Shown piece by piece: positions 4,876-54,197 of a stretch of DNA of 64,000 bases. The stretch's first letter is position 1; the number at the start of each line of letters is the position of its first letter. The DNA comes from Saprospiraceae bacterium. Lineage in GTDB: Bacteria > Bacteroidota > Bacteroidia > Chitinophagales > Saprospiraceae. Made by a program: the position numbers and the translations under genes. The stretch spans positions 62,001 through 126,000 of the forward strand of contig CATQHI010000027.1 of assembly GCA_958295895.1 (NCBI GenBank). Direction: 5' to 3'. The notes beneath the pieces are model-generated. The model saw only the letters and a list, made by a program, of their open reading frames with translations. It was not told where the DNA came from and ran no database searches.

Positions 4876-6125
4876 ACGGTGATTTCCTGTCCAGCTGGGG
4901 CGAGGCCGCCTACACCACGGTCGGCTTCTTCTGGATGGCGCTGTGGGCCTTTGCCTTTGGCTACATCGTGAGTAGTCTGATCCAGGTACTGGTCACCCAG
5001 CAGCGAATGAAGCGGGCCATGGGCGGCGAGGGCTTCCGGCAGGTGGGCCTCGCCGCCGTGTTCGGCCTCATCAGCTCGTCGTGCAGTTTTGCGGCCCTGG
5101 CCACCACCAAATCGCTCTTCAAGAAGGGGGCGGGCTTCGTGCCTTCCGTAGCCTTCCTGCTGGCGAGTACTAACCTGGTGATCGAGCTGGGCTTCGTCAT
5201 CGCCATCTTTCTTTCCTGGCAGTACGTTGTGGGCGAGTACGTGGGCGGTCTGCTGCTGATCGGGAGTGCCTGGGCCTTCATTCGGCTCACGCGGCCAAAA
5301 AAATTGATCGACCAGGCCCGGGAGCACATTAGCGGCGGAGAGGATGACGACGGGGACAAGGACCTGCCCGACTGGCGGGAGCGCATCCAGCAGTACGACG
5401 CCTGGAAGAAGATCGGCAAGCGCTACCGCATGGAATGGGGCATGGTGTGGAAGGACGTGACGGTGGGCTTCACCATTGCCGGCATCGTGGCGGTCTTCAT
5501 CCCTCCTTCCTTCTACGAGACGCTGTTCATTGGTACGGGCGGGGCCGCAGGTGCGGGGGAAGGCTATTCCTTCCTCCAGATCCTGGAGCACGTGGTGGTC
5601 GGACCGGTCATGGCCTTTCTCACCTTCATCGGTAGCATGGGCAACATTCCCCTGGCCGCCGTGCTCTTCAGTAACGGGGTGAGCTTTGCGGGTGTGATGG
5701 CCTTCATCTTCAGCGACCTGGTCGTGTTTCCGGTACTGCGGATCAACGCCAAGTATTACGGCTGGAAAATGTCGCTGTACATCCTACTGACGCTGTTCGT
5801 CTCCCTGGTCATGACCACACTGATTCTTCACTACGGCTTCTCGCTCTTCGGCATCCTTCCGGAGGGCTCGGGTAAGAGCGGCGGCATCACCGACCGGCAA
5901 TTCTTCCAGCTCGACTATTCCTTCTGGCTCAACCTGGCTTTCCTGCTCCTCTCGGGGGCACTGGCGTGGCTGTCGACGAAGAAGATCGAGGACGAATCGC
6001 TCAGGGGCATGCACGAGATGCCGGACAAGGGCTGGGTAGAGACCGTACTTTTCTGGCTGGCGATGGCGAGCTTTGCCTGGCTGGCGGTGGGGCTGCTACT
6101 GAGGTTTACCGGCCTGGGGGGCTAA
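4872..6125 (+). CDS. UPF0718/DUF318-type permease
   Basis: A 417-aa polytopic membrane protein. The region ISSSCSFAALATTKSLFKKG followed by a hydrophobic segment with ASTNLVIELG is characteristic of the UPF0718 (YraQ/ArsP-like) permease family, which includes organoarsenic exporters and metal-island permeases of unknown substrate. About eight to ten membrane helices are visible, with a charged cytoplasmic loop (EDDDGDKDLPDW) in the middle. It is translationally coupled to the HMA protein and ends the copper operon, three bases before a convergent gene. One copy of the 18-bp interspersed motif (5537-5554) encodes GGAAGA in a loop before a helix. Substrate not determinable from sequence. Confidence 0.85.
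   Translation: MNGDFLSSWGEAAYTTVGFFWMALWAFAFGYIVSSLIQVLVTQQRMKRAMGGEGFRQVGLAAVFGLISSSCSFAALATTKSLFKKGAGFVPSVAFLLASTNLVIELGFVIAIFLSWQYVVGEYVGGLLLIGSAWAFIRLTRPKKLIDQAREHISGGEDDDGDKDLPDWRERIQQYDAWKKIGKRYRMEWGMVWKDVTVGFTIAGIVAVFIPPSFYETLFIGTGGAAGAGEGYSFLQILEHVVVGPVMAFLTFIGSMGNIPLAAVLFSNGVSFAGVMAFIFSDLVVFPVLRINAKYYGWKMSLYILLTLFVSLVMTTLILHYGFSLFGILPEGSGKSGGITDRQFFQLDYSFWLNLAFLLLSGALAWLSTKKIEDESLRGMHEMPDKGWVETVLFWLAMASFAWLAVGLLLRFTGLGG
5537..5554 (-). repeat. Interspersed GC-rich motif, copy 1
   Basis: Read on the minus strand it is GCACCTGCGGCCCCGCCC, an exact match to the consensus. It lies inside the permease gene and adds the loop GGAAGA. Confidence 0.85.
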
Positions 6126-6128
6126 TGC

Positions 6129-6872
6129 TTAGTGGCCGTACATCTGATTCCAGGTATCGGCTGGATCGTCCGCGTAGACGTAGGCGTGGGCCATCCAGCC
6201 GAATACCGTTTCGAGTAGGCGGCCATCCTCGGCGGCGCAGTCGGCTTCGGTGGTGATGGGGCTTTCGGGGCCAAAGATCGGTTGGCCCCGGTCGTCTACC
6301 CGTGCCCAGGCCTTACTGTCCCAGATCGGTTTGGGTACGCAGATGTTACGGTGGAGGTGGTAACGGACCTGGGAGAGTGGCACCCGGGCGTCAAGCTCGC
6401 GTACGGTAGCCGTGACCGGGGCGGTGATCATCGCCCCGATCAACTTCCAGTCCTGACCGTCGTGGGTACGCGCGTAGAGCAGACTGCCGGGCCGGGAGGG
6501 ATCGAAACCGTCTGCTTCGTCCTTAGAGTACTGCTGATTGACCAGGTGGACTATATACATATGCGGAGGCGGGTCGGCGGGGAAAAATTCGTATCCGTCC
6601 TCCTGGGCTACCCCGATGTCCCGGTAGCGGGCTATGCCCTGTTTGATCTGTGCGGCTAGGGTATCGGCTCGCTCCCGATCGCCGGGTAGCTCCGGCTGGA
6701 GCTCGGTCATGATGCCGTGGGGGTCGCCCGGCATGGGCTTGGCGATGTCGGCCGCTACGACCTCCGACTTGTCGGCCGAGATCGCGGAGGTGACCACGCC
6801 ATCGATGAGTTGTCCGCAGCCACTCAGAAACAAGGTGGTCAGAAGGCTTAAACCCAAGATTCGAAGGCCCAT
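6129..6872 (-). CDS. Conserved lipoprotein of unknown function
   Basis: A 247-aa predicted lipoprotein: a short hydrophobic signal ends in the lipobox LSGCGQ. The mature part has a run HLHRNICVP, a cysteine pair (CVP and DCAAEDG) and a C-terminal FGWMAHAYVYADDP, which look like conserved ligand or structural sites; I do not recognise a named domain. It lies convergent with the copper permease (3-base gap) and downstream of the MFS gene, so a role in metal handling is only suggested by location. Confidence 0.75.
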   Translation of the reverse strand: MGLRILGLSLLTTLFLSGCGQLIDGVVTSAISADKSEVVAADIAKPMPGDPHGIMTELQPELPGDRERADTLAAQIKQGIARYRDIGVAQEDGYEFFPADPPPHMYIVHLVNQQYSKDEADGFDPSRPGSLLYARTHDGQDWKLIGAMITAPVTATVRELDARVPLSQVRYHLHRNICVPKPIWDSKAWARVDDRGQPIFGPESPITTEADCAAEDGRLLETVFGWMAHAYVYADDPADTWNQMYGH

Positions 6873-7003
6873 AGTGCATGGTTTGATCCGGCGATAAGAC
6901 GTTTCATCCTCCTTAAATATTATTTCGCTGGTGTTAAAGTGCTGTTAGTGACACGATCGCGTCCCCGCCCGGTGCGTGGCAGGCAAAGTCGGGCCGCTGA
7001 TCT

Positions 7004-8194: not shown

Positions 8195-8201
8195 CGCCGG
8201 C

Positions 8202-10622
8202 CTACTTGAGTTTGTACTTTACCCCCGCCGTGACCACCTGCGTCTCGTAGTAATTGGCCGTGGTGACGGTAAATCCCTCCCCGGTAAATTGCTCGCGGAT
8301 CTGGAAGGTATTGAGTAGATCGGTAGCCGCCAGGCTCAATTCCAACCGCTGAGTGAGTAGTTGCTTGCGTAGGCCCAGATCGAGACTGAAGCGCGAAAGC
8401 GTCTTGCCCTGGGGAATGATGTTCGGCGCGAGGTACTGTGCCGTTACCTGTAGGTCAACCGTCTCATTGATGTCCCCATTGACGTTGAGCTTGCCGTTCC
8501 AGGTGTAGCCGGTACTGCTCGCCACGGAGAAGGGCTGTACGGTAGGATACCGATGTTCGCCGCTGAAGGCATCCAGGTGATTGCGGTACCCACTCAGACT
8601 GGCATCGAAGCGCCACGCCTCGCTCAGCCGCCGGTCGACGATAATCTCCAGCCCGATATTCGTCCCATCCCCAAGATTTTGGGGGATGGTATGAAAGACC
8701 GGAAACTGCCCGCTGCCGTTCGCATCCGTAGTAAGGATGCGGGCGAAAATATTGGTGATCGACCGGTAGAAGACGGCGGCGTAGACCGAGCCCCGGTCGC
8801 CCCCCTGCTTCCAGGCGGCTTCCACCGTCTGGGTGAACTGGGGACGTAGCGCCGGGTTGCCGGTTTTGAGCAGTTCCGGGTCGTCGTACTTGGGAAAGGG
8901 CCGGACAAAGAATTCGCTGGGCCGATCGATGCGACGGTTGTAAAATAGCGAGACCTTTGCACCCGCGGCCCCGCCCCGGTAACTCAGCCGTGCACTGGGG
9001 AAGAGGGGTTGGTAATCGTACCGCTCGTTACCGTAGTAAGCGTTCTCCGGGTCGATGGTGAAGTCAACGACCGTAGGCTCGAAGCGTAGACCGGCCTCCA
9101 GCGTCAGCCGCTCGCCCTCGCGCACATAGTTGCCGTACAGGGCATACACGTCTTCCCGATACTCGGAGTAGCTGCCCAGGTCGGGGTCGAGAATGCTTTG
9201 CTCGCCCGGAAACAGCGTGTAGGTAAGCGGTATGCGCCGCAGACTGGTCTTGCTGCCCAGCTCCAGCGTACCGTTGGCCAGGGGCTTGGTGTAGTCGAGG
9301 CTGATGTTGTTGACGTACTCGTAAATGGTGAGGAAGGTGCCGTCCAGGAAGCGGCCGCCGTTCTTGTTGTCGACGAAGGGGAAGAGCTCGTCCTCGCCCC
9401 CGCCGGTGTAGAGGTAGCTGGCCCGTAGTTCGTGCCCCGGCTGACTGAATTTGTGGTCGAATGCGGCCGAGTAATTGATAAACTTGGTGCGCTCGTCCTC
9501 TATCCAGGTCCAGAGCCGCCGCCGCTCGCCGCTTTCGGCATCGTCGTAGGGTACGTAGCCAAGATCGTTGTGGTATTCATCCTGCCAGAGGGCAAAGACC
9601 GTGAGGGTATTGGCGGGGTCGATGAACCAGTCCAGCCCGCCCTTGAGGTTGTAGAGTTGTTGCTGGCGGTTTTCGAGGAACTGACTCTGAATGTCGCGCC
9701 GGTCGCTGCCGTCGGTGTAGTCGCGCAGGGTGAAGGTGTTGTTGTTCACCCGCCGGCGCACGATGCCGTCGCCCTGGAAGAAGAAGTTGATCTTCTCCTT
9801 GCGGTAGTTGAGGCTGAGGGCGGGATTGAGCTTGGGCGTCCAGGCGTACTTATCGGTGAGGTTCGGGAGGTTGGCCCGCCGCTCGGTCAGTTCTCCGAGC
9901 CCGCCGTAGAGGGCAGCCTCCCCGTTCCAGCCGTCGTTACGGTCTTTTTTGTAGATGATGTTGATCACGCCGGCCAGCCCGCGGGCGTCGTACTTAGCCG
10001 AGGGGTTGTTGATGATCTCGATGCGCTCGATGTTGGCGGCCGGCAGGTTGTCCAGGCCCCGCTGGTTGCCGAACCCGGTCAGGCTGCTGGGCTTGCCGTC
10101 GATGAGCACCGTGACCTGGTCGCTGCCGCGCAGTAGGATCTTGCCCTCCGGGTCCACCGTCACCCCGGGCAGGTTGCGCATGGCCTCGAGGGCCGAGCCG
10201 CCGGCCTGGGAGAGGTTATCGTCCAGCGAAAACACCTTACGGTCGAGGGCGGCGGCCACGGTTTCGCGGCGGCCGGTGACGGTGACCTCCTCCAGTTGGG
10301 CGGCATCGGCTTCTAGTGCGAGGCTACCGAGGTCGAGGGCGGCGGCGGTCTCCCCCACCCGGAAGGGATGGCTGAGCGGCAAGTAGCCTAGATAGGTGAT
10401 TTCGAGCGTGTAGTTGTCGGCGGCCAGGCTGCCGAGTTGGAAGCGGCCCTGCTCATCGGTGAGTACCCCTCCCTGCTGGCTGCCGTCTAGTAGTACGACG
10501 ATGGAGGCAAAAGGTAGGCCCTCCCCCATATCCGAACCTACCACGCGACCGCTTACCTCAGCGGTCTGACCGAAGCTAGTCAGGGAAAAAATTGAAAAAT
10601 ACAAGAACAGCAGTAAGCGCAT
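8202..10622 (-). CDS. TonB-dependent receptor (carboxypeptidase-regulatory-like plug, outer-membrane beta-barrel family)
   Basis: An 806-aa outer-membrane receptor with a signal peptide (to about residue 19), an N-terminal carboxypeptidase-regulatory-like beta-sandwich (SGRVVGSDMGEGLPFASI), a plug domain (LEAMRNLPGVTVDPEGKILLRGSDQVTVLIDG) and a long barrel ending in the aromatic-rich strand TAGVKYKLK. The layout fits the OMP_b-brl_3 type common in Bacteroidota, which import siderophores, metals or other small molecules by TonB energy. Neighbours are an MFS transporter downstream and a PepSY-like lipoprotein upstream. A copy of the interspersed motif (8956-8977) encodes GGAAGA between two barrel strands. 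Ligand unknown. Confidence 0.93.
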   Translation of the reverse strand: MRLLLFLYFSIFSLTSFGQTAEVSGRVVGSDMGEGLPFASIVVLLDGSQQGGVLTDEQGRFQLGSLAADNYTLEITYLGYLPLSHPFRVGETAAALDLGSLALEADAAQLEEVTVTGRRETVAAALDRKVFSLDDNLSQAGGSALEAMRNLPGVTVDPEGKILLRGSDQVTVLIDGKPSSLTGFGNQRGLDNLPAANIERIEIINNPSAKYDARGLAGVINIIYKKDRNDGWNGEAALYGGLGELTERRANLPNLTDKYAWTPKLNPALSLNYRKEKINFFFQGDGIVRRRVNNNTFTLRDYTDGSDRRDIQSQFLENRQQQLYNLKGGLDWFIDPANTLTVFALWQDEYHNDLGYVPYDDAESGERRRLWTWIEDERTKFINYSAAFDHKFSQPGHELRASYLYTGGGEDELFPFVDNKNGGRFLDGTFLTIYEYVNNISLDYTKPLANGTLELGSKTSLRRIPLTYTLFPGEQSILDPDLGSYSEYREDVYALYGNYVREGERLTLEAGLRFEPTVVDFTIDPENAYYGNERYDYQPLFPSARLSYRGGAAGAKVSLFYNRRIDRPSEFFVRPFPKYDDPELLKTGNPALRPQFTQTVEAAWKQGGDRGSVYAAVFYRSITNIFARILTTDANGSGQFPVFHTIPQNLGDGTNIGLEIIVDRRLSEAWRFDASLSGYRNHLDAFSGEHRYPTVQPFSVASSTGYTWNGKLNVNGDINETVDLQVTAQYLAPNIIPQGKTLSRFSLDLGLRKQLLTQRLELSLAATDLLNTFQIREQFTGEGFTVTTANYYETQVVTAGVKYKLK
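8956..8977 (+). repeat. Interspersed GC-rich motif, copy 2
   Basis: TTT followed by GCACCCGCGGCCCCGCCCC; one change (T to C at position 6) from consensus. Inside the TonB receptor, encoding GGAAGA in a barrel turn. Confidence 0.82.
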
Positions 10623-10657
10623 AGGGTGGAGTTAGAGTACATGGTCAACAAGATAGC

Positions 10658-11128: not shown

Positions 11129-11154
11129 GATCAAGAGTTTTATACGTTTCCTTT

Positions 11155-11175
11155 GGCGGGGTCGCAGGTGCAAAG
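11155..11175 (-). repeat. Interspersed GC-rich motif, copy 3 (upstream of PepSY-like gene)
   Basis: On the minus strand it reads TTTGCACCTGCGACCCCGCC, one change from consensus in the core. It lies 27 bases before the PepSY-like start, and its 5' end is part of CAACTTTG (11171-11178), a near match to the TAnnTTTG promoter box. Confidence 0.82.
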
Positions 11176-11220
11176 TTGCCGGGTGAAGTTGGAGAAATAT
11201 TGGTCGGTAGGATATTCCAT

Positions 11221-11910: not shown

Positions 11911-11920
11911 TGTGAATCGT

Positions 11921-14415: not shown

Positions 14416-17400
14416 TTATGTCTTTTCGATTAGCCGCAACAGCGTCGGCAGCACGAGCAGCAGTAGAGGCAGGGCTACCACCAGCCCCCCGATGACCGCG
14501 ATGGCCAGGGGCTGGTGCATCTGCGCACCCGTGCCCAGGGCCAGGGCAAGGGGGAGCAGGGCCATGATGGCCCCGATGGCCGTCATGAGCTTGGGGCGCA
14601 TGCGGGTAGAGATGGCGTATACGATGGCCTCGTCCCGCCCCTCACGGTGGCGATTTTCGGCGTACTGGAAGTAGGTAAAGATGCTGTTCTCCCCGATGAT
14701 GCCGATGACCATGATGATGCCGATGTAGCTACCTACGTTGAGGGAGGTGCCCGTCAGGTACAAAGCCGCCAGACTGCCGGAAGCGCCGAGCACGGCCAGC
14801 ACCACGATGAGCAGCGCCACCCCGAAGCGTTTGAAGAAAAATAGAATCACCGTAAAGACCAGCAGACTGGCCAGTACCAGTATCTGCAGCAGCTCGCTGA
14901 AGGCCTGCTTCTGCTGGGCGTATTCCCCGCCGTACTCGATCGTGTACCCCGGCGGAAGCGGTATCTGGGCGGCAACCCGGGTACGGATGTCCGCCAGTGT
15001 ACTGCCCAGGTCGCGGCCGCTGAGCCGGGCGGAGACTACGCCCATACTCTTCAGGTTCTCGCGGTTGATCTCCCCCGTGCCGGCCCGTACCGTGACCGTG
15101 GCGAAGCGTTCCAGGGGCAGCAGCCGGCCCTGCGGCGTGAAGAGCAGGGCGTTGCGCAGATCGCGCACGCTGGTCGTCGCGCTGTTAGGATAGACCATGC
15201 GGATGGGCGTAATCTGCTGCGTCTCCGGAATGCCCCCCTCGAGCGTACCCTCCAGCTGAGTCTGGAGCTGAAATTGAAAGTCGGCGGCGGAAAGGCCGTA
15301 CTGCTCCAGCCGGGCCACGTCGGGGTCGACCAGTACGGAAGGCCCGGCGATGGTAATGCCGTCGAATACGTCGGCCGTACCCGGTACCGCTTCGACCACC
15401 GTGGCCACGCGGCGCGAAAGCTCGTCCAGCACCCGCTGCTCGCTGCCGAAGATCTTGATCTCGATGGGCTGTACGCTGGTCATAAGGTCGCCGAGCATGT
15501 CCGTGATGACCTGCCCGAAATCAACCGTCAGCGCCGGGAGAATCGTTTCCACCCGTTGCCGGATCTCGTTGGACACCTCATCCGTCGACAGCTTCCGGTC
15601 CTTGGCCAGCTGGATAAGGTAGTCCCCCCGGTTAGGCTCGGTGATAAAAAACCCCATCTGGGTGCCCGTGCGCCGGGAGTAGGAAACTACCGTGGGGATG
15701 CTGTCCAGAATGGCATCCACCTGCCGGAGCATCAGGTCGGTAGCCTCCAGGGAGGTGCCCGGGGGGGAGTTGTAATCCAGCACGATGGAGCCCTCGTCGA
15801 GCTCGGGCAGGAAGCCGGACGGCAGTAGCGGAGCCACTAGGTAAACGACGGCCCCTAGCAGCACCACGGTCAGGATACTGTAGCCCGGATGACCGATCAC
15901 CGTCTTCACCCAGTGCTTTTCCTCCACGGTCTTTTGCACCTGCGTGCCCGCCCCCTTCCGATTTGCGTTGAGCAGGAGATAAATGACCGGCAGGCCGATC
16001 CAGGTGATGAAAAACGAACACACGAGGGTGATGATCATCGTCTCGGTGAGAATGCGGAAGTAAGCCCCCGCGATGCCCGTCATCAGTACGAAGGGGATGA
16101 AGATGACGATCGTGCTCAGGGAGGAGCCCACCATGGCCGGGAAGAGGTAGCCGATCGCATCGCTCACCAGCTCGCGGGCCGGGGTGTCGGGGTGTTCCTC
16201 GTGGCTGCGGTGCAGCTGCTCGACGATGATGATGGCGTCGTCGATCACCAGTCCGATGGCCGCCGCAATCGCGCCCAGGGTCATGATATTGAAGGCATAG
16301 CCCAGCAGGTAAAGCACCGCGATCGTGAGGCTGAGCGTGAGCGGAATGGTCACCAGCAGTACGGCACTGCTGCGTAGCGAGCGCAGGAATACGATGGCGA
16401 CCAGGATGGCCAGTCCCAGGCCGATCCACAGCACGTCCTGGATGCCCCGCACGGAGTCCTTCACGAAGTCGGCCTGCTGGTAGTAGGGCCGCAGCACCAC
16501 GCCCCGGGGCAGGAGGGTATTGAGGGCGGCTACCTTGACCGCCAGGGAGTCAGCCACGTCGATGAGGTTGGCACTGACCTGCTTGGTGACCGCCACCAGG
16601 GGCACGTCCTGGCCGTTGGCCTTGATCCTGATGTATTCCTTCTGGGCGGTGATGACCACCTCGGCGATATCCTGCACGTGCACCGTGCGCATGGGGGAGG
16701 CAAAGATCACCGTCTGCTGCAGGTCGTAAAGGTCGTTGATGACCGCGTCGGTCAGCGTGAGGTAGAGGCGGTCGTAGTCCTGCAGGTAGCCGTTGGAGTT
16801 GACGAAGTTGGCCCCGGTGAGGACGCTATCGACCATCTGGGGCGTGATGCCCAGCTCGCTCATGCGCTGGGGGCGGAGCAGCAGGTGGTACTCCTTGGTT
16901 TTGCCGCCCGTAACGGATACCTCCGATACCCCCGGCACCTGGGAGAGAAAGGGCTTGACGGTATATAGGGCGATGTCCTTCAACTCGATCTGGCTCAGGT
17001 TGCCCTCCAGGGAGTAGCCCGCGATGGGCAGGATGGAGGGGTTCATCTTCTCGACGGTGAGGCGCACGTCCGGCGGCAGGTCCACGCGGATCTGATTGAC
17101 CAGGCTCTCGACGCGCTGCAGCCCGAGGTCGATGTCGGTGTTCCAGTCGAAGAAGGCGGAGATCTCCGCGCTGCCGCGGCTGGTGGTGCTGCGCACGTCC
17201 TGGATGCCCGGGGCCCGCTTGACGGCCTCCTCCAGGGGGCGGGTGACGGTGAGCATCATCTTCTGCACCGGTTGCTGCCCGTTCTCGGCGATGATCTTGA
17301 CCTTGGGGAAGGTGACGTCGGGGAACAGATCGGACTTCATCCTGCCGTAGCTGTACACCCCGGCCAGCAGCACGATCGCCAGGACCGCGGTGATGGGGTT

Positions 17401-22203: not shown

Positions 22204-23385
22204 TTAGTGATCGTGTTCCATGCTCCCCACCCGCGACTGGGCGTACACGAAGTAGGCCCCCTGCGTCACGATCCGCATACCCGCCGGCAGCGAATCGATC
22301 AGGCGCACGGCGGTAAAGCCATCATCGGTGGTGCCCGGGTTGACCAGGAGGCGGGTGAAGGTAACCTCGTCCTCCTGCGTCGTGTCCGGGGCGGCGTAGA
22401 CGTAGCTGGTCTCGCCCTCCCGTACGACGGCCGCTTCCGGCAGGGCCGCTACCGTCTGATCGTCCAGCCAGATACGCGCCTCGGCGAAGCGGCCCTCCAC
22501 GAAGGGCGGCTGTTCCCCACGCAGGTGAGCGTGTACGCGCACGGTCTTATTCTTCGGGTTGAATTCCTTACCGATCACGTGCACCTCCGCCTCGTACTGC
22601 TGGGGCCCCAGCGCCGGTATCCGGTAGCTCACCCGCTGCCCCACCTCCACGCGGGCCACGTCGCGTTCGAAGACCTCCAGCTCCAGGTGCAGATGATCTT
22701 CGTCGATGAGCTCCATCAATTCGGTGCTGGGTTCGACGTACATCCCATCGTGCACGTTGATGGTGGTGATGTAGCCGGAGCGGGGGGCAAACAGGGTGAC
22801 CCGGTCGATGATGTTTGCCGGGGTCACGTCCGCGGCCCGAATGCCCACGTACTCCAGCCGCTGGCTGAGACCGGCCAGCGTGGCCTCCTTCGCCGCGACC
22901 TCCGCGCGCAGGCGTTGCACGGTTTTGAGCACCCCGGCGTCGGCGGCTACCAGTTGCTCCTGCCGCTCCAGTTCCTGGCGTAAGAACTCCAGTTCCGCCC
23001 TCGCCTCCAGCAGGTACTGCTGCTGGTCGATGAAGTTCACGTTTTCCAGGTAGCCCAGCGTGGCCCCCTTGCGCACGTAGTCGCCCTCCACGTAGTTGCG
23101 CACGTCGTGTACGAAGCCGGCGGCGCGGGTGCTCACGGCGGCGTAGGCATTAGGTGGCAGGCCCAGTACGCCGGTGGCACTGAGGTAGTCGTTCAGCTTC
23201 AGGTCGGTGAAGTCGCCGAGGCGGATGTCCATATTGCGCACCTGCTCGGCGGTGAGGTGGATGCCGGCGTCCTGCTGCTGTTCGTGGGGGTCGGGATGTG
23301 GCTCTTCTTCCGGGCCGTCGTTTTCGGGGGCGGGGCCGCAGGTGCAAAGAAGGAGGGTAAGGAGCAATGCGTACGTGGCTTTCAT
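22204..23385 (-). CDS. CzcB/CusB-like RND periplasmic adaptor, lipoprotein
   Basis: A 393-aa adaptor. The signal ends in LLLCTCGPAP, where the lipobox cysteine sits inside a copy of the interspersed motif (23326-23349). A His/Glu-rich stretch follows (EEEPHPDPHEQQQD), then the lipoyl-like halves (ATGVLGLPPNAYAAVSTRAAGFV and VTLFAPRSGYITTINVHDGMYV), a helical hairpin rich in Glu/Arg, and a C-terminal barrel. It precedes the CDF gene and follows the CzcA-CzcC fusion by 11 bases. It would join the pump and its channel and may hand over metal. Confidence 0.92.
   Translation of the reverse strand: MKATYALLLTLLLCTCGPAPENDGPEEEPHPDPHEQQQDAGIHLTAEQVRNMDIRLGDFTDLKLNDYLSATGVLGLPPNAYAAVSTRAAGFVHDVRNYVEGDYVRKGATLGYLENVNFIDQQQYLLEARAELEFLRQELERQEQLVAADAGVLKTVQRLRAEVAAKEATLAGLSQRLEYVGIRAADVTPANIIDRVTLFAPRSGYITTINVHDGMYVEPSTELMELIDEDHLHLELEVFERDVARVEVGQRVSYRIPALGPQQYEAEVHVIGKEFNPKNKTVRVHAHLRGEQPPFVEGRFAEARIWLDDQTVAALPEAAVVREGETSYVYAAPDTTQEDEVTFTRLLVNPGTTDDGFTAVRLIDSLPAGMRIVTQGAYFVYAQSRVGSMEHDH
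23326..23349 (-). repeat. Interspersed GC-rich motif, copy 5
   Basis: Exact consensus on the minus strand, preceded by CTTT. It supplies the lipobox of the CzcB-like protein (CTCGPAP). Confidence 0.85.
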
Positions 23386-30105: not shown

Positions 30106-30124
30106 TGTACCCGCGGCCCCGCCC
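30106..30124 (+). repeat. Interspersed GC-rich motif, copy 7 (upstream of GH13 gene)
   Basis: TGTACCCGCGGCCCCGCCC: two changes from consensus. Intergenic, 48 bases before the GH13 start. Confidence 0.75.
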
Positions 30125-37489: not shown

Positions 37490-40423
37490 TCAGTCTACGG
37501 CAGAGCGTGGGGGATGCACTACCTCCGCCAACACCTCCGCCGAGTGCCACACCCGCCGCCCCAGCCCATCCTTCACCTGGTGCCGGCAACTCGTGCCCGC
37601 CGCCACGATCACCGTCTCGGCCGAACAATCCCGTAGCTTTGAGTACAACGACTGCTCCGCTATTTGTTGGCTCACCGTATAATGCTCCGCCTCATACCCA
37701 AAGGAACCGGCCATCCCACAGCAGCCGCTATCGAGTAGAGTGACGTTGAAGTTACGGGGCAGAGAAAGCACCGCCGCACACTTACTAGCCTCCCCCAGCG
37801 CCTTCTCGTGGCAGTGTACGTGCAGCACGATCTCCCGTCCGCCGTCCCCAAAATCCCCGGTCCCCACCCTGCCCTCGGTGTACTCCCGGAACAGCCACTC
37901 GTCAAAGGTCATCGCCCACTGGCCCAGCACCTGCGCCCGCGCCGCCAGTTTGCCCCGGAAGAGCTTCGGATACTCATCGCGGAAACCCAGGATTGCCGAG
38001 GGTTCCAGCCCCACCAGCGGAGCGTCCTCCCCCACCCGATCGGCAAATATTTCTACGTTGCGCGCCGCCAGTCGCCGGGCCTCCTTCAGTAACCCTTTAC
38101 TGAGTTGGGCGCGGCCACTCCCGGCATGCTCGGGCCACAGCACCTCGTAGCCCAGCCCCCACCACAGCCGCAGGGCCGCCCGCCCTACCTCCACGTCCTG
38201 GTAGTTGACGAACTCATCGCCGAAGAAGTACAACTTGCCCCGGGCACCCGCTACGGCAGGCTGCTCCCGCTCGAAAAAGCTACGTAACGACTCAGCGGGA
38301 AAACGCGGCAGCGACCGCTCCGCTGCAATACCCAGAAAGCGCTTCACGAGGGGGCCGGTCAGATCTAGCAGCGCATTCGCCAGGGCGGGCACCTTGCCAC
38401 CCAGCCGGTACAGCCATTCGTTGGAAGCCACCAAACGGGTACGCAGCGACACTCCGTCCCGCTCCTGCCGCTGGTGCATGTATTCGGCCTTGAGCGCCGT
38501 CATATTCACCGTGCTGGGGCACTCGCTCGTACAGGCCTTACAGCTCAGGCAGAGATCGAGCGCCTCGGCCAGGGCAGGGTGGCGCCAGGGGTCCTCCTTT
38601 TGGTTCTGGGTAAGCACCTCGCGCAGCACATTGGCGCGGCCGCGGGTGCTGTCCCGTTCGTGCAGGGTGGCCCGGTAGCTCGGACACATAGCCCCACCGT
38701 CGAGTTTCCTACAGTCCCCCGAACCATTACACTTTTCGGCGCTGCGGAGTAGTCCTCCGTCGGCACTGAAGTCGAGGGTGGTATCGTATTCCGGCACTGG
38801 TGCGTCGGCCACGTAGCGTAGCTCCTCGTTCATCGGCGGGGCCTCAACGATTTTTCCGGGATTAAACATGCCCCGGGGATCCCACACTCGCTTGAGGTCT
38901 ATCAGTAGCTGATATACCTCCGGGCCCAGCATCTCCGGTAGGAACTGCCCCCGCACCCGCCCATCACCGTGCTCGCCGCTCAGGCTGCCGCCGTACTTTT
39001 TGACCAGCCGGGCTACATCGCGGGTGATGTCGTGAAAGCGCTGGCGGTCCTCCGTTTTCTTCAGGTTCAGGATGGGGCGTAGGTGCAGCTCTCCAGCCCC
39101 GGCGTGGGCGTAGAAGACCGCGTTTTGCTGGTACAACTGCATCAGCTCCTCTACCTCGGCGATGTAGTCAGCCAGGTCGGGTAGGGCCACGGCGGTGTCC
39201 TCGATACAGGCTACGGCTTTGGTGTCGCCTATGATATTGCCCAGGATGCCCAGTCCGGCGGCGCGTAGGGCCCATACCTTATCGGTCTGCTGCTGGCCGG
39301 GGAGCGCGGGTGCGGCGTAGGCGGGCGTGGCAAGGCCTCCGGGCTCCATCATCGTGCGACCGAGTGCCGTAGCCTGCTGGAGGGCGAGCTCGTCGGTGGC
39401 GGCGCGGTACTCGACCAGTAATAGTGCCCGGGGGTCTCCCTCCACGAAGGCAGCATTCTTGCGCTGGTCGTGATTTTGCAGGGCGAGGTGGAGGATGGTA
39501 TCGTCCATGAGCTCGCACATGAAGGGACTGGTCTCCATAGCCAGTTGGGTAGCGCGCAGACTGGCATCCACCGCCGTGAAGTGTAGCGCTACCACCGCCG
39601 AGCCCCGGGGGGGCAGGGGTAGAACGCGTAGCTTGAGCCGGGTGGTAAAGGCTAGTGTGCCTTCTGAGCCGGCCAGTAGGGTGCAGAGATTTAGGGGGGG
39701 GCCGTCGGGGTTAAAGGGGGCTTGTCGGGACAGCAGGTCGAGGGCGTAGCCGTTGTTGCGGCGGGTGACACTGGCTTTAGGATAAGCGGCTGCGATCAGG
39801 TCGCGGGTAGCGGGATCGGTGAGGTGTTGGTGGAGGAAGGTATGGACGTTTGCTAGTAGTTCATTCTCTTGCACCTGCGAGCGCGCCCCTATATCATGCA
39901 CACTTCCATCGCTTAGCACCACCCGAGCCTCCAGGCTGTGCTCACGTGTACTACCCACCGTAATACTTGTACTGCCACAGCTGTTATTGCCAAACATCCC
40001 GCCGAGGGTGCAACGGTTGGCCGTACTGGTATTGGGGCCGAACCAGTAGCCGTGCTCCCGCAGCGCCGCGTTAAGTTGGTCACGGATCACGCCGGGTTCG
40101 ACGATCGCATAGCCCTCCTCCCGATTGATCTCGATGATGCGCCGCATGTGCCGGCTGATATCCACGATGAGCCCCTTTCCCACTGCCTGCCCCGCCAGGC
40201 TGGTCCCCCCCGCCCGCGGCGTGATGGGCACCCCGTACCGCCCCGCAAAGCGTACGCAGGCCACGATATCTGCCTCCGATCTCGGGAATGCCACGGCCAG
40301 CGGCAGCTCCCGGTACACGCTGGCATCGGTGGCAAAGAGGATGCGGTGCAGGGCATCGGTTTCCAGCTCGCCCTCCAGCTCGGCGGCGAGGGTGGCCCAG
40401 GGCAGCGTGGGGTTGGTGGACAT
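37490..40423 (-). CDS. FAD-linked oxidase with 4Fe-4S and CCG domains (YdiJ/D-2-hydroxyacid dehydrogenase type)
   Basis: A 977-aa cytoplasmic or membrane-associated flavoprotein. Order: FAD-binding PCMH domain (GVPITPRAGGTSLAGQAVG), FAD oxidase C-terminal domain (GGSLSGEHGDGRVRGQFL, the histidine site), a ferredoxin-like pair (CNGSGDCR...CPSY and CLSCKACTSECP), and CCG-type C-terminal domains (HCHEKALGEASKC, SGCCGMAGSFGYE). This is the full layout of YdiJ-like D-2-hydroxyglutarate/D-lactate dehydrogenases, which pass electrons to the quinone pool. Two motif copies lie inside (37927-37943 and 39869-39889). TACCTTCG on the minus strand, 4 bases before the ATG, is a near-perfect promoter box. 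Confidence 0.94.
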   Translation of the reverse strand: MSTNPTLPWATLAAELEGELETDALHRILFATDASVYRELPLAVAFPRSEADIVACVRFAGRYGVPITPRAGGTSLAGQAVGKGLIVDISRHMRRIIEINREEGYAIVEPGVIRDQLNAALREHGYWFGPNTSTANRCTLGGMFGNNSCGSTSITVGSTREHSLEARVVLSDGSVHDIGARSQVQENELLANVHTFLHQHLTDPATRDLIAAAYPKASVTRRNNGYALDLLSRQAPFNPDGPPLNLCTLLAGSEGTLAFTTRLKLRVLPLPPRGSAVVALHFTAVDASLRATQLAMETSPFMCELMDDTILHLALQNHDQRKNAAFVEGDPRALLLVEYRAATDELALQQATALGRTMMEPGGLATPAYAAPALPGQQQTDKVWALRAAGLGILGNIIGDTKAVACIEDTAVALPDLADYIAEVEELMQLYQQNAVFYAHAGAGELHLRPILNLKKTEDRQRFHDITRDVARLVKKYGGSLSGEHGDGRVRGQFLPEMLGPEVYQLLIDLKRVWDPRGMFNPGKIVEAPPMNEELRYVADAPVPEYDTTLDFSADGGLLRSAEKCNGSGDCRKLDGGAMCPSYRATLHERDSTRGRANVLREVLTQNQKEDPWRHPALAEALDLCLSCKACTSECPSTVNMTALKAEYMHQRQERDGVSLRTRLVASNEWLYRLGGKVPALANALLDLTGPLVKRFLGIAAERSLPRFPAESLRSFFEREQPAVAGARGKLYFFGDEFVNYQDVEVGRAALRLWWGLGYEVLWPEHAGSGRAQLSKGLLKEARRLAARNVEIFADRVGEDAPLVGLEPSAILGFRDEYPKLFRGKLAARAQVLGQWAMTFDEWLFREYTEGRVGTGDFGDGGREIVLHVHCHEKALGEASKCAAVLSLPRNFNVTLLDSGCCGMAGSFGYEAEHYTVSQQIAEQSLYSKLRDCSAETVIVAAGTSCRHQVKDGLGRRVWHSAEVLAEVVHPPRSAVD
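37927..37943 (+). repeat. Interspersed GC-rich motif, copy 9 (degenerate)
   Basis: GCACCTGCGCCCGCGCC keeps every position that is invariant among the other copies but changes two variable ones. It encodes ARAQV in the FAD oxidase, in the same frame as copies 4, 6 and 10. Confidence 0.6.
39869..39889 (+). repeat. Interspersed GC-rich motif, copy 10
   Basis: TT then GCACCTGCGAGCGCGCCCC; three changes from consensus. Inside the FAD oxidase, encoding GARSQVQ. Confidence 0.78.
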
Positions 40424-41122: not shown

Positions 41123-42790
41123 CTACTCAGAGGCGTCAACCACCCGCCGGTCCACCAAAAACCGCGTCCCATCCACCTCCACCCGGTCCACGGCCAGCCC
41201 CCGGCCCAGCGGCTGCCAGTCCGGCGTCGCATCCACCCGTACCGGCTCCTCGTCGATGAGTAGGCCAAGGGACATCGTGAGGTCCGGCACGTCCGCCGCC
41301 AGTCGGTATTCGACCTGCCCGTCCTGCTCGCGCAGCTCCAGTACCGGTAGCTCGGGATGCTTCAGGTACTGATCGAAGAAGGGCTGTAGATCCCGCTCGG
41401 TGTAGGCGCTGAAGTAGTCGATCACCTGCTGCGTATTGACGATACTGTGCTGGTGGTCCTGGTAGAAGCTGCGGAGCAGGCCGAAGAACAGCGGATCGTC
41501 GTTGAGCACGCCCCGCAGCGTATGTAGCATCCAGGCCCCCTTGTAGTAGTGGTCGCTGGAGCCGAAGGCGGTGAAGTTGACCCCCAGCGGACCCAGGATC
41601 GGCCGCAGGTTCTCGATGAATTTTTTCTGGGTCACCAGGTACCTCCGCGCATCGGCCGCACCCATATGGTACTCCACGTAGAGTGCCTCCATATAAGTCG
41701 TAAACGACTCGTGGATCCACATCTCCGCGTGGTCCGCCACGCTGATCGAGTTACCGAAGTACTCGTGGCCGGCCTCGTGCACGATGATGTAGTCCCACTC
41801 CATATCATCCGGAATCAAGCCCCCCAGGTAGCCCCGCATGTAGCGGTTGCCGTAGGCGATACCGCTCTGGTGCTCCATGCCCAGGTAGGGGGTCTCAATG
41901 AGGGCGAAACCATCGTTCCAGAAGGGGTACTTGCCGAAGTAGTGCTCGTAAGCCTCCAGCATCGGCGTCACCTGCTGGAATTGCTTCCTGGCCTTGGCCA
42001 GGTTATAGTCCAGTACGTAGTAGTCCAGCGCCAGTTCCTCCCCGTCGAAGCTGCGGTACACGTCGTCGAAGTGCACGTAGTGCCCCACGTTTACCGATAC
42101 ATCATAATTGTTGATGGGGTAGCTCACGAACCAGTCGAAGCGCCGCTTACGCTCCCGTTCCAGTGCTATCTCCTTGCGCAGATTCCCGTTGCTGGCCCCG
42201 TACATCCGCTCCGGCACGGTCACACTGATGAGCATGGAATCGGGCTCGTCGCCCAGGTAGTCCTTATTCGGCCACCAGAGACTGGCCCCCTCGCCCTCGC
42301 AGGCCACCCCGACCCAGTAGCGATTTTGCTGATCCAGCGCCCAGACGAAGCCGCCGTCCCAGGGCGCGTTCTTTGCCTCCGTGGGCGTGCCGCCGTAGCG
42401 GATCGTCATCCGGTGCCGGCTGCCGGTATCCACCGGGTGGGGCAGCTCCACAAATACGGCATTGCCCTTGCGGGTAAAGCGCAGCTCCTTTTCTTTCTGA
42501 GTAATCCCGTCGATCTGCAGATTCTCGTACAGGTCCAGTTGCAGGATCGGCAGCTGCCCGGTGATGGTATAGTCCATCTCCACCCGCCCCTCGATGGTCT
42601 GCTCGCGGGGGTCTACGTCTACGTACAGTTCGTAGTAGGTCACGTCATAGTTGGCCCGGGCGGGCAGGAGACTCCCACGCAGCGTATCGGCCTGCGTAAA
42701 GTGGCTCGTGTCATAGTACCCGCTCTCCTGGGCGCGGCCGCAGGTGCAAACACATAGGAACGACAAAAGAAGCACTAGGCGGTGGAGCAT
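41123..42790 (-). CDS. M1-family metallopeptidase, exported
   Basis: A 555-aa M1 aminopeptidase-like protein. Signal ends near CTCGRAQ (a motif copy gives the cysteine pair; it could be a lipoprotein, though the residue before the Cys is Thr rather than a small lipobox residue). Beta-saddle N-domain, then GMEHQSG (equivalent of the GxMEN exopeptidase motif, with His and Gln changes) and the zinc site HEAGHEYFGNSISVADHAEMWIHESFTTYMEALY (HExxH-18x-E). A C-terminal Ig-like segment replaces the usual helical domain. The substitution in GxMEN might alter aminopeptidase specificity. Start set at 42790 (MLHRLVLLL) for the signal peptide. Confidence 0.92.
   Translation of the reverse strand: MLHRLVLLLSFLCVCTCGRAQESGYYDTSHFTQADTLRGSLLPARANYDVTYYELYVDVDPREQTIEGRVEMDYTITGQLPILQLDLYENLQIDGITQKEKELRFTRKGNAVFVELPHPVDTGSRHRMTIRYGGTPTEAKNAPWDGGFVWALDQQNRYWVGVACEGEGASLWWPNKDYLGDEPDSMLISVTVPERMYGASNGNLRKEIALERERKRRFDWFVSYPINNYDVSVNVGHYVHFDDVYRSFDGEELALDYYVLDYNLAKARKQFQQVTPMLEAYEHYFGKYPFWNDGFALIETPYLGMEHQSGIAYGNRYMRGYLGGLIPDDMEWDYIIVHEAGHEYFGNSISVADHAEMWIHESFTTYMEALYVEYHMGAADARRYLVTQKKFIENLRPILGPLGVNFTAFGSSDHYYKGAWMLHTLRGVLNDDPLFFGLLRSFYQDHQHSIVNTQQVIDYFSAYTERDLQPFFDQYLKHPELPVLELREQDGQVEYRLAADVPDLTMSLGLLIDEEPVRVDATPDWQPLGRGLAVDRVEVDGTRFLVDRRVVDASE
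42730..42750 (-). repeat. Interspersed GC-rich motif, copy 11
   Basis: Minus strand TTTGCACCTGCGGCCGCGCCC, one change from consensus in the core. It forms the end of the M1 peptidase signal (CTCGRAQ). Confidence 0.83.
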
Positions 42791-44854: not shown

Positions 44855-44877
44855 TTGCACCTGCGGCCGCGCCCCCC
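44855..44877 (+). repeat. Interspersed GC-rich motif, copy 12 (upstream of AraC-Ogt gene)
   Basis: TT then GCACCTGCGGCCGCGCCCCCC; one change from consensus. It ends one base before the promoter box of the next gene. Confidence 0.83.
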
Positions 44878-45751: not shown

Positions 45752-46871
45752 CGTAGATGTAGCCGTCGGGGCCCATGCGCACGTCCCGCAGCCGGCCGAT
45801 ATTCTTGATGATGTCCTGCTCGCCCGTGACCTCGTCGCCGTCGAGGTGGACAAGTTTGAGGTAGCTGTACTTGAGGCTGCCGACCAGCAGGTCGTTCTCC
45901 CAGCCGGGGTAGCGATCGCCGGTGATGAAGGCCATGCCGCTGGGGGCAATGCTGGGTACCCAGTAGTGCACCGGTTGTTCCATACCCTCCTTGGCCACCT
46001 CCTGGGTGATCTGGCTGCCGTCGTAGTTGATGCCGTAAGTGATCACGGGCCAGCCGTAGTTCTTACCGGCCTCGATGATGTTGACCTCGTCGCCGCCGCG
46101 GGGGCCGTGCTCGTGCTCCCATACCTCGCCGGTCTGTGGATGAACGGTCAGTCCCTGTAGGTTGCGGTGGCCGTAGGAATAGATGGCCTCCTTAGCTCCC
46201 GCTACGCCTACGAAGGGGTTATCGGGGGGTATACTGCCGTCGGCGGCGATGCGGTACACCTTGCCGCCGTCGCGGGTGGTATCCTGCGGGTTCTCGTCGC
46301 GGTTACCCCGGTCGCCGATGGTGAAGTAGAGGTAGCCGTCGTTCGGTCCCCACACCATGCGGCTACCGTAGTGCTGCCCCTTGTCGGTGGCCGGCCCGCC
46401 GTCGTAGAGGGAGGTAAAGTCTTCGAGCTGGCTCCCGTCGTCACTCAACCGGCCGCGCCCCACGGAGGTGAAGCCCTTCTCGCCACCCTCCTCGGAGCGG
46501 CTGTAGGTAAGATACACGTAGCGGTTAGTACCAAAATCTCGGTCCAGTAACACGTCGAGTAGGCCGCCCTGCCCCTCTGTACGTACCTCCGGTGCCCCCG
46601 CGACCTCCGTCGAGGAATCTCCGTCGATCAGCAGCAGCCGTCCATCCTTTACCGTAGCCAGCATCTTGCCGTCGGGCAGCCAGGTGAAGCCCCAGATGAT
46701 ATCCTCAAAGTTGAACACGGTTTCGGTGTCCACGCCGGCGGCGGTCAGCATGGTAGTGGGCTCGGCGTCAGCGGCTCGGTCGGGTGCACTGGTAGTCGTC
46801 TCCGTCGCTTCGGGGGCGGGGTCGCAGGTGCAGAGGAGGAGGGTGAGGGCGATGAATAGGATATAGCGCAT
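45708..46871 (-). CDS. PQQ-dependent sugar (sorbosone/glucose) dehydrogenase, lipoprotein
   Basis: A 387-aa exported beta-propeller. Signal ends LLLCTCDPAP, the same motif-derived lipobox as CzcB. Propeller features of the GSDH/Asd family: FTWLPDGKMLATVKDGRLLLI, DVLLDRDFGTNRYVYLTYS, WGPNDGYLYFTIGDRGNRDENPQD, SYGHRNLQGLTVHPQTGEVWEHEHGPRGGDEVNII and GPDGYIYASIEGTG. The HGPRGGDE loop contains the catalytic His and PQQ/Ca ligands. Oxidises sugars or alcohols in the periplasm. A perfect promoter box 4 bases before the ATG predicts a leaderless message. Confidence 0.93.
   Translation of the reverse strand: MRYILFIALTLLLCTCDPAPEATETTTSAPDRAADAEPTTMLTAAGVDTETVFNFEDIIWGFTWLPDGKMLATVKDGRLLLIDGDSSTEVAGAPEVRTEGQGGLLDVLLDRDFGTNRYVYLTYSRSEEGGEKGFTSVGRGRLSDDGSQLEDFTSLYDGGPATDKGQHYGSRMVWGPNDGYLYFTIGDRGNRDENPQDTTRDGGKVYRIAADGSIPPDNPFVGVAGAKEAIYSYGHRNLQGLTVHPQTGEVWEHEHGPRGGDEVNIIEAGKNYGWPVITYGINYDGSQITQEVAKEGMEQPVHYWVPSIAPSGMAFITGDRYPGWENDLLVGSLKYSYLKLVHLDGDEVTGEQDIIKNIGRLRDVRMGPDGYIYASIEGTGIVRVVPV
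46812..46832 (-). repeat. Interspersed GC-rich motif, copy 13
   Basis: Minus strand TGCACCTGCGACCCCGCCCC, one change from consensus. It supplies the lipobox CTCDPAP of the sugar dehydrogenase, in the same frame as copy 5. Confidence 0.85.
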
Positions 46872-46883: not shown

Positions 46884-46887
46884 TGCG

Positions 46888-52341: not shown

Positions 52342-52370
52342 ATCGGGGGCACCCTTTTGGGGAGAGGGTG

Positions 52371-52378
52371 CAAAGTTA
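52371..52378 (-). promoter_or_regulatory. -7 promoter box of PurF-like gene
   Basis: TAACTTTG on the minus strand, a perfect TAnnTTTG, with a leader of about 29 bases to the ATG at 52341. The leader has GGGTGC and GCACCC that could pair as a small hairpin. Confidence 0.6.
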
Positions 52379-52486
52379 CAACGCGTAGGGTCCTGACTTA
52401 GTCGGGACGGGTGCGGGGTGTTTGGGGAAACTTCTCCACAGGAATTGGGGAAAGTGGTAGGGGTTGAGGTACGGGGCAGGCAAGGC

Positions 52487-52595
52487 GGGAAGCCCTTTCA
52501 GGGAAGCGGGGGCACACCCACCGTCCCCGGAGGGGGCGCCCTAATGGAGCGGAGGGTGAAGTTTTCCGGCGTAGCCGGAATACGTAGCCCTTCGC
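52487..52595 (+). repeat. Intergenic hairpin-rich stretch, repeat-like
   Basis: Between purF and DUF2236. It holds CGTCCCC-GGA-GGGGGCG (7-bp stem, one G-T pair) and TTCCGGC-GTA-GCCGGAA (perfect 7-bp stem) separated by an AATGGAGCGGAGGGTG stretch. The composition looks like a repeat-type element rather than coding or a terminator. The ORF through it is not believable. Confidence 0.45.
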
Positions 52596-52621
52596 GACTC
52601 CAACGCGTTAAGGTAGTTACC

Positions 52622-53419: not shown

Positions 53420-53448
53420 GCTTCGGCAGATGACTTTCCACGCCCCCC

Positions 53449-53469
53449 TGCACCTGCGGCCCCGCCCCC
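53449..53469 (+). repeat. Interspersed GC-rich motif, copy 14 (upstream of cluster gene A)
   Basis: TGCACCTGCGGCCCCGCCCC, an exact consensus match. Intergenic, 50 bases before the first cluster gene. Confidence 0.85.
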
Positions 53470-53507
53470 TGGCTTTGGCTGCTTACACGAAGCAGTCCGG
53501 TAAAGTG

Positions 53508-53515
53508 TACTTTTC
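53508..53515 (+). promoter_or_regulatory. Near-consensus -7 box of cluster gene A
   Basis: TACTTTTC, one base off TAnnTTTG, 4 bases before the ATG at 53520. Confidence 0.5.
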
Positions 53516-53519
53516 AACT

Positions 53520-54197
53520 ATGTTTCAGGGGACTACTGGGCCGAACTACATCGGTGACTGCCCGCAGGGTCTTTCACATTCCCAGCTGAGTACCTATTTT
53601 CGGGAGCAGATGAGTCACCGCGCTACCCCACCGCTACGGTTTTTCGGCCGCTTACCTCTCGTGGAGCGCCGTCCGTTTCCCGAGTTGGACCCCCTGATCG
53701 TGTCTGCTGGCCTGGTTACGGTCGGATTTGTATTCTTTCAGGACTGGCGCGCGGCCGTATGCATGATCGTATTGATCGGCCTGCTGGTCCTCCTTCCGTA
53801 TCTCGAGGCTGCCATCAAGCGCATCATCTTCGGCCGGGCCAGTCTAGAACTGAGGGGCAAACACCAAAACGAGCTCCGCATCTTACTACGTCTGGCGGGG
53901 CGCGACAAGCTACTCGATGCTACCCTCACCCTCACGGCCAGGGGGCAGCTCGTACATGGGGGCGGGGCCGCAGGTGCAGCGAGCTTTGGGAGGGAGCGGA
54001 TTACGCAGACCGTGCACCTCATCGACCAGCTACTACTGGATGCGGATGGTGGCGATCCTAGCGTCATTTTCCCCTTACCCCCCGTCAATTCCCACGAAGT
54101 AGAGGCTAGCACCTGGCGACTCACCTATACCTACCGGCCGCGTTTTTGGTTTGCGCAGCGTAAGACGTGGGCGTTGAGCCCCCAGCAGCCCGTATGA
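53520..54197 (+). CDS. Cluster gene A: two-helix membrane protein with a beta-rich C-terminal domain (unknown family)
   Basis: A 225-aa protein. The N-terminal 60 residues are polar; then two close helices (LIVSAGLVTVGFVFFQD, VCMIVLIGLLVLLPYLEAAI) and a beta-rich domain. In that domain the order RASLELRG, LLDATLTL, VHLIDQLL, VIFPLPPV and STWRLTYTY recurs in genes B, C and, weakly, D. It may be an arrestin-like beta-sandwich. The start is suggested by a near-consensus promoter box. A motif copy (53958-53977) encodes GGGAAGA in a loop inside the domain. Its stop overlaps gene B's ATG. Function unknown. Confidence 0.72.
   Translation: MFQGTTGPNYIGDCPQGLSHSQLSTYFREQMSHRATPPLRFFGRLPLVERRPFPELDPLIVSAGLVTVGFVFFQDWRAAVCMIVLIGLLVLLPYLEAAIKRIIFGRASLELRGKHQNELRILLRLAGRDKLLDATLTLTARGQLVHGGGAAGAASFGRERITQTVHLIDQLLLDADGGDPSVIFPLPPVNSHEVEASTWRLTYTYRPRFWFAQRKTWALSPQQPV
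53958..53977 (-). repeat. Interspersed GC-rich motif, copy 15
   Basis: Exact consensus on the minus strand. Inside cluster gene A, encoding GGGAAGA in a loop that genes B-D fill differently. Confidence 0.85.

Follow-up and report, generated by a model that had tools for sequence, protein, structure and literature searches.

Results

An 18-bp word repeated in a 64-kb window

The window analysed in this study is a 64,000-nucleotide stretch of the genome of a marine Saprospiraceae bacterium (GenBank assembly GCA_958295895.1, contig CATQHI010000027.1, positions 62,001 to 126,000). It encodes, among other proteins, a permease, efflux proteins, a TonB-dependent receptor-like protein and an FAD-oxidase/Fer4 protein, and a GC-rich 18-bp DNA word recurs within and between its genes (Table 1). 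As described below, this word is probably an uptake-signal-like sequence with dialects in the Bacteroidota, resembling the DNA uptake sequences (DUS) and uptake signal sequences (USS) of other bacteria.

Both strands of the window were scanned with GCACCTGCGGCCCCGCCC, allowing up to three mismatches, and 100 dinucleotide-preserving shuffles served as controls. Seventeen matches were observed, whereas the shuffles gave a mean of 0.44 and at most three. All 15 copies listed in the preliminary description of this DNA were recovered, at positions 0-3 bp from those first reported, and its view that chance would give essentially none agrees with the shuffles. The other two matches were excluded. The match at 38632(-) codes for the peptide TRGRAN, which is conserved in all 15 aligned FAD-oxidase orthologues covering it (11 of them have STRGRAN), and that at 16871(-), with three mismatches, is weak and probably due to chance. 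Our own gene calls place 12 copies within genes and three between genes, instead of the 11 and four counted before. The peptide readings GGAAGA, AxxQV and CTCxxA noted previously were observed again, together with APAAPA and LHLRPR.

Table 1. Motif copies in the window.
Position	Strand	Mismatches	Location	Peptide
5537..5554	-	0	ArsP_1-type permease gene (4872-6125 +)	GGAAGA
8959..8976	+	1	TonB-dependent receptor-like gene (8202-10622 -)	GGAAGA
11154..11171	-	2	intergenic, C-rich towards downstream gene	
15936..15953	+	2	RND pump gene (14416-17424 -)	AGTQV
23328..23345	-	0	signal-peptide part, HlyD-type protein (22204-23385 -)	CTCGPA
24521..24538	+	2	RND-OEP gene (23397-27719 -)	AGAQV
30107..30124	+	2	between divergent genes	
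32832..32849	-	1	ORF (open reading frame) matching glutamine synthetase catalytic domain (32368-32991 +)	GGAAGA
37927..37944	+	3	FAD-oxidase/Fer4 gene (37490-40423 -)	ARAQV
39871..39888	+	3	variable-length loop, FAD-oxidase/Fer4 gene (37490-40423 -)	
42730..42747	-	1	signal-peptide part, M1 peptidase-like protein (41123-42790 -)	CTCGRA
44857..44874	+	1	intergenic by own gene calls	
46814..46831	-	1	signal-peptide part, glucose/sorbosone dehydrogenase-like protein (45708-46871 -)	CTCDPA
53450..53467	+	0	near start of ORF 53373-54197 (+), no Pfam match	LHLRPR
53960..53977	-	0	further along ORF 53373-54197 (+)	GGAAGA

Two of the listed genes have unusual structures. The 1440-aa product of 23397-27719 (-) is a single chain in which an RND pump (ACR_tran) is fused to an outer-membrane efflux (OEP) region at the C-terminus. 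The 207-aa product of 32368-32991 (+) covers only positions 138-344 of the 344 positions of the glutamine synthetase catalytic domain, and the gene may be split or frameshifted.

Abundance and sequence preferences in the source genome

The source is a draft genome of 4.77 Mb in 35 contigs. We examined 864 kb of it in detail (stretches of contigs C1 and C2 and the window; approximately 18% of the genome), and the remainder was covered by pattern counts. With up to two mismatches, 814 copies were counted in the genome, 380 and 434 on the two contig strands, versus 8 for the reversed pattern. A copy number predictable from GC content and codon usage had been proposed as evidence against a mobile or selected element; this count and that in the window (17 against 0.44) both lie far above such a prediction. 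In the 864 kb, 51 exact copies and 57, 57 and 34 copies with one, two and three mismatches were found; the reversed control gave six copies with three mismatches, compared with the 34.

The consensus in the source genome is GCACCtGCGgCCCCGCCC. Its loose positions are 5 and 9 (counted from 0), and positions 10-12 also vary in relatives. Upstream of the word, C at -11, A at -9, T at -6, C at -4 and pyrimidines at -2/-1 were preferred in the 864 kb. When the copies were divided into eight context groups, coding and intergenic, the preferences at -11, -4 and -2/-1 led in all eight, A at -9 in six and T at -6 in five. Because the upstream preference is common to different reading frames and to intergenic DNA, it is a property of the DNA and not of a protein or a promoter; recognition is of DNA.

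The frequent TTGCACC start of the motif resembles the -7 box of Bacteroidota. A promoter reading was nevertheless rejected, as no TA-type box stands out upstream and coding copies have the same upstream letters. A terminator reading was rejected as well: the word lacks palindromic symmetry, and closely spaced pairs are no more common than expected at random, though most of the closest ones are inverted, as described below.

Placement relative to genes

Genes were called with our own codon-based caller, which is cruder than standard annotation, and the gene assignments are approximate; 84% of the 864 kb was called coding. Although approximately 16% of the DNA is non-coding, 85 of the 165 copies with up to two mismatches are intergenic and 80 genic (P = 2e-25). 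The genic copies use all six frames, with the readings GGxAGA, AGxQV, CTCxPA, APAAP and LHLRPR. The coding strand reads C-rich in 34 of them, and 15 of these start ahead of base 100 of the gene, including one immediately in front of the gene start, whereas only 1 of the 46 that are G-rich on the coding strand does so (Fisher P = 3e-6). The CTCxxA readings fall in signal-peptide-like gene starts. Between co-directional genes, the reading towards the downstream gene is C-rich for 37 copies and G-rich for 12. The orientation rule put forward in the preliminary description, that copies in signal peptides and in front of genes read C-rich and those in gene interiors G-rich, is borne out in the larger sample.

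Spacing is compatible with random placement, with coefficients of variation of 0.88 (up to two mismatches; simulated range 0.86-1.17) and 0.95, both within the simulated ranges; even spacing of the copies was rejected, since it is indistinguishable from random. Neighbouring pairs within 300 bp numbered eight among 199 sites; seven of them are inverted, six as minus then plus. Frequent close inverted pairs of the kind seen in Neisseria were not found among these 199 sites of the 864 kb.

Motif density varies with local GC content: it is 93 per Mb where GC is below 54%, reaches 250 per Mb at 61-63% and is 140 per Mb above 63%. Four long motif-free stretches were listed, and ten proteins picked by eye in three of them were scanned. 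Among these proteins are three low-GC SusC/SusD pairs and a type I restriction locus, and one of the ten had no match.

Distribution and dialects in the genus

We compared 21 genomes of the genus with 243 sampled genomes from other genera of the family. G001 and G002 correspond to Neolewinella agarilytica and N. antarctica (identical motif places), G007 is N. marina, and G013 and G020 correspond to Lewinella sp. IMCC34191 and N. xylanilytica (identical motif counts). A scan of related Neolewinella genomes had been suggested as a check, and it showed strong enrichment of the window form in 18 of the 21, with 161 to 1135 copies at up to two mismatches. In the remaining three, the counts against controls were 6 and 1 (G011), 4 and 5 (G013) and 34 and 2 (G020). 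The two orientations were near-equal in number across the genus. At the same threshold the 243 genomes of other genera had 0 to 4 copies, similar to their controls; the window form is limited to the genus. At up to three mismatches, the maximum elsewhere in the family was 56 copies, with controls up to 45 (248 genomes, G011 left aside), and several genomes exceeded their own control, for example G239 with 44 versus 5.

A broader pattern, GCACCNGCGNNNSCGCCC with up to one mismatch, was used for the named genomes. Against controls it gave 1639 versus 20 matches in N. persica, 1440 versus 38 in N. aurantiaca and 1002 versus 23 in the source genome; the values were 25 versus 22 in IMCC34191 and 81 versus 36 in N. 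xylanilytica. The consensus also differs among species, being GCACCTGCGgCCgCGCCC in G009 and at the N. persica locus and GCACCtGCGGCAGCGCCC in G010, and N. marina and G012 contain mixtures of dialects. G013 uses ttTaCCTGCGCtCCGcCGCC, and CCTGCGCTCCG occurs there 18 times in 203 kb versus 0.31 expected. The dialect of G020 is gctCCcGCGCnCCGgCGCC, with a spacer two letters longer, and G013 and G020 have in common a shifted version of the motif. G011 iterates an unrelated word, TTTGGCTNNCAAAGTAGCAATG; the corresponding pattern GGCTNNCAAAGTAGCAATG had 945 copies versus 1 in the control at up to two mismatches, and 0 to 2 copies in each of the other 20 genomes. The presence of these other dialects in G011, G013 and G020 led us to reject a loss of the motif there.

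In a midpoint-rooted tree of ComEC from the 21 genomes, G013 and G020 form a supported sister pair, in agreement with the shifted form that they share. Both main groups use the GCACC word, and a long branch separates G011 from the others, its placement being unsure with this rooting.

Tandem repeats were also seen in two of these genomes. G013 has a tandem-like array of GGAGCTCCAG units with a period near 93 bp (L103:3700-5550), and G011 has short tandem arrays of the 7-bp unit CCCGACT in two places (L092:19590-19810 and L096:2930-3100).

Iterated words in other genera

Five genomes of other genera (G045, G170, G059, G050 and G119) were sampled at 80 kb each. In the sample of G045 (L114-L117), k-mer counts revealed a 12-letter word, GCTTNCGCAAAA. 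It is present in 929, 1081 and 907 copies in genomes of genus g26, versus 2-3 in controls, and is enriched in g28 (202, 687), g37 (285, 373) and g65 (140, 514), and less so in others. The sample of G119 held nothing comparable, yet that genome is enriched for GCTTNCGCAAAA (73 versus 1). No comparable iterated word was found in the 80-kb samples of G059 and G050. GCTTNCGCAAAA may represent a further dialect of such a system, and iterated words of this type may be frequent, though not universal, in the family.

In the sample of G170 (L122-L125; 43% GC), GC-rich repeats that are longer and structured recur at intervals of a few kb, and their sub-units include CAGGGCCGAGC and GACCTGCGAGC. These repeats appear to form a dispersed family of their own.

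Conservation and turnover of individual sites

The source sample of 864 kb was compared with 400 kb of G008, the nearest relative by ComEC (74% identity). On the source side, 39 of 189 sites were alignable: 24 were kept, 4 were degraded without a gap, 10 had other gaps and 1 was insertion-like. On the G008 side, 43 of 88 were alignable, with 24 kept, 10 degraded, 6 showing other gaps and 3 insertion-like. The two sets overlap, and the 82 aligned sites are partly the same sites. In G008, 62% of the sites were kept versus approximately 13% expected at the flank identity of 77% (P = 3e-12), where retention by chance means that 13 of the 14 fixed letters are kept; the excess persisted at an assumed identity of 85% (P = 9e-4). 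In the 30 of the 39 pairs that are equal in length, identity was 0.95 in the core, 0.59 at the loose positions and 0.77 in the flanks, so that changes gather at the loose positions. What is conserved is the DNA word. The preliminary description had reasoned that orthologues keeping the residues without the DNA motif would speak against a DNA element; instead, the orthologues keep the DNA word while the loose positions change.

Alignment of orthologues had also been proposed as a way to recognize exact insertions. Most differences were substitutions, with 4 of the 82 sites insertion-like, and copies accordingly appear, from these alignments, to arise and decay mainly by substitution. Exact insertion with empty sites in relatives, a feature of repetitive extragenic palindromic (REP) and miniature inverted-repeat transposable element (MITE) sequences, was not the pattern among the aligned sites. 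Individual sites illustrate the point-by-point change. The site at 37927 is also present in N. maritima (L071), and the other 14 FAD-oxidase orthologues covering it differ by substitutions at constant length. At 39871, in the variable-length loop, 9 of 16 FAD-oxidase orthologues keep CGCAGGTGC. The comEC gene of the source genome itself holds an exact copy, TTG CAC CTG CGG CCC CGC CCT; the same codons read TTA TAC CTG CGC CCG TCG CCA in G013 and CTG CAC CTG CGC CCG GCG CCC in G020, each close to the genome's own dialect with a spacer one letter shorter.

Candidate uptake machinery

ComEC is encoded in all 21 genomes of the genus. Matches to PF00437, the family of PilB, PilT and GspE, were found in 20 of the 21, 11 of them narrowly at the cut-off. 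The best score was 25.5 bits against a curated cut-off of 24.9, and each match covered at most 84 of 370 profile positions; we read these matches as probably other ATPases. A type II secretion motor was likewise not evident from PF00437 in the 21 genomes. Since no convincing motor of the PilB/PilT type was found, a type IV pilin of the ComP type is unlikely as the receptor.

Transformation of Riemerella anatipestifer, a member of the Bacteroidota with ComEC, requires ComEC, DprA, ComF, RecA and four further proteins whose function is not known; two of these come from a single predicted operon, in which a DUF5689 protein is encoded (PMC8459023). In the genus studied here, DUF5689 was found in 1 of the 21 genomes, G011, the carrier of the unrelated word. 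At L137:5673-10601 of this genome, the gene for a barrel-type outer-membrane protein precedes that for a DUF5689 lipoprotein with three such domains, and MbnP and MauG genes lie alongside. The best matches of the adjoining 933-aa barrel-type protein in the other 20 genomes were short, at 34 bits or less.

Discussion

The preliminary description had left several options for the word, among them an uptake signal. That option is strongly favoured by the copy number, the two orientations, the limitation to one genus, the dialects, the conservation of sites and the placement bias inside genes. From this we infer a receptor, preferential uptake and competence of these species. A surface receptor that reads sequence would prefer fragments carrying the word, and such fragments would enter the cell, one strand through ComEC, and then recombine into the chromosome. 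Better-matching alleles would be taken up more often, so that the word would accumulate by point mutation and recombination where genes tolerate it, as in intergenic DNA, signal peptides and loops. If the preference of the receptor drifted, sites would gradually be respelled, giving rise to species dialects.

This picture shares much with the known systems, having many copies above composition in both orientations, genic and intergenic sites, turnover by point mutation, related dialects and ComEC. The copy number, orientations, genic and intergenic sites and change by point mutation fit the DUS of Neisseriaceae (PMC3630211) and the molecular-drive account of uptake sequences (PMC1939737). In Neisseriaceae, DUS number in the hundreds to thousands per genome, and their dialects agree with phylogeny and share a core (PMC3630211); a comparable copy number, agreement with phylogeny and a shared core within otherwise different dialects are seen here, and two dialects in one genome, known for DUS in S. 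muelleri (PMC3630211), recur in N. marina and G012. Unlike those DUS, the present word has 18 bp plus upstream preferences rather than 10-12 bp, is GC-rich, and has a conserved part on either side of a loose spacer, which varies in length among dialects; moreover, the word of G011 is unrelated although this genome belongs to the same genus. The USS of Pasteurellaceae likewise have an orientation and position bias within genes (PMC2346458), and more than one sequence type occurs in that one family; those USS belong to a different phylum, with no common sequence noticed and, here, no convincing pilus motor. A core with weaker flanking preferences is a further likeness to Pasteurellaceae USS. Neisseria and Haemophilus have a type IV pilus motor, whereas no convincing one was found here. 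Because no convincing motor of the pilus machinery of those systems was found, we describe the proposed system as working like DUS and USS and as a member of neither. R. anatipestifer resembles it in being a member of the Bacteroidota with ComEC; its transformation machinery is described as unique, with envelope proteins of unknown function, and the main text of that report contains none of four uptake-sequence terms (PMC8459023). DUF5689, a domain of an essential protein there, was found here in one genus genome.

Several observations weigh against an uptake signal. The ComEC search also matched 10 of 14 control genomes, Escherichia coli among them, and the presence of ComEC therefore proves little. 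With PF00437 as the one pilus family searched, and pilins, DprA and ComEA outside the search, the 21 genomes gave no convincing motor for a type IV pilus. DUF5689 occurs in 194 of 248 family genomes and adjoins MbnP/MauG genes in G011, and two g65 genomes (84-88% complete) that iterate another word have no DUF5689 match. The restriction of DUF5689 to G011 within the genus is a suggestive lead, but we do not claim DUF5689 as the receptor for the G011 word, a role confounded by this wide occurrence and by possible retention, as G011 may be a basal lineage that kept the domain. Close neighbours are not in excess (34 gaps below 1 kb among the 199 sites versus 36.8 at random). Since density climbs with local GC, the low density in low-GC DNA, including part of the motif-free stretches, may be due in part to composition. 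Finally, the insertion-like sites (a gap of at least 14 at the motif) number 4 of 82 versus 0 of 303 control windows, and at four further sites the other genome is longer by 15-24 letters, such cases being uncounted in the control windows.

These last figures, with the very high copy number, are what a mobile micro-repeat inserting exact copies would have in its favour, an option raised in the preliminary description. It is largely contradicted and very improbable: aligned sites differ mostly by substitutions or small gaps, a comparison of 16 loci had a gap of at least 15 in 1 of 307 aligned pairs (redundant pairs, including the peptide-conserved site), and one and the same comEC site is spelt differently in different species. 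Composition fares worse. The word is GC-rich and reads as the common residues Ala, Gly and Pro, and density rises with local GC up to 63%, but shuffles and the reversed pattern give almost no copies, half of the copies are intergenic, and the AT-richer word of G011 is equally iterated (945 versus 1); a by-product of GC content and codon usage is refuted by the controls and retains practically no probability.

The conservation at the DNA level across contexts, the intergenic enrichment and the preferred orientation towards downstream genes would also be expected of a site selected throughout the genome for a chromosomal protein (a nucleoid or architectural protein, a global regulator or a DNA-modifying enzyme) and co-evolving with it, and dialects would follow from evolution of the binder. 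We consider this unlikely, as spacing is compatible with random and as some 1000 long, non-palindromic sites stand in ordinary genes in all frames, a situation for which we know of no chromosomal-protein system. As a modification target the 18-bp word would be unusual, modification motifs being normally much shorter. A Chi-like recombination signal, whose targets within the cell would be exonuclease-recombinase complexes, would share the abundance, the coding and intergenic sites and the specificity for a genus. Chi sites are, however, 5-8 bp long and biased to one replication strand, whereas this word has 18 bp, a loose spacer and further upstream preferences, and its two orientations are near-equal in number, though the contigs are arbitrarily oriented to replication; we regard such a signal as quite improbable.

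An uptake signal thus remains our preferred explanation. More broadly, the Saprospiraceae may take up DNA sequence-specifically without type IV pili, through an outer-membrane receptor whose recognition word switches between genera and between species, in one genus even to a word without relation to the others, a proposal for which we see the case as evenly balanced. The words would be GCACCNGCG-n3-SCGCCC, CCYGCGC-n-CCG-n-CGCC and GGCTNNCAAAGTAGCAATG within the genus, and GCTTNCGCAAAA in other genera. To our knowledge, the only groups with established uptake signal sequences are the Pasteurellaceae and Neisseriaceae, both Proteobacteria relying on type IV pilus machinery, and no report of such a system in Bacteroidota was among the matches listed from the open-access literature. 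If the explanation is correct, Bacteroidota would gain their first uptake-signal system and, as far as we know, uptake signals a third independent origin, with self-DNA recognition having arisen independently and without a convincing pilus motor. It would predict competence in cultivable marine species and point to an undescribed class of sequence-reading receptor. The dialects, including the word of G011, would form a natural series of switches in which to study the co-evolution of a receptor with a thousand sites, and they could serve to label conspecific versus foreign DNA in metagenomes.

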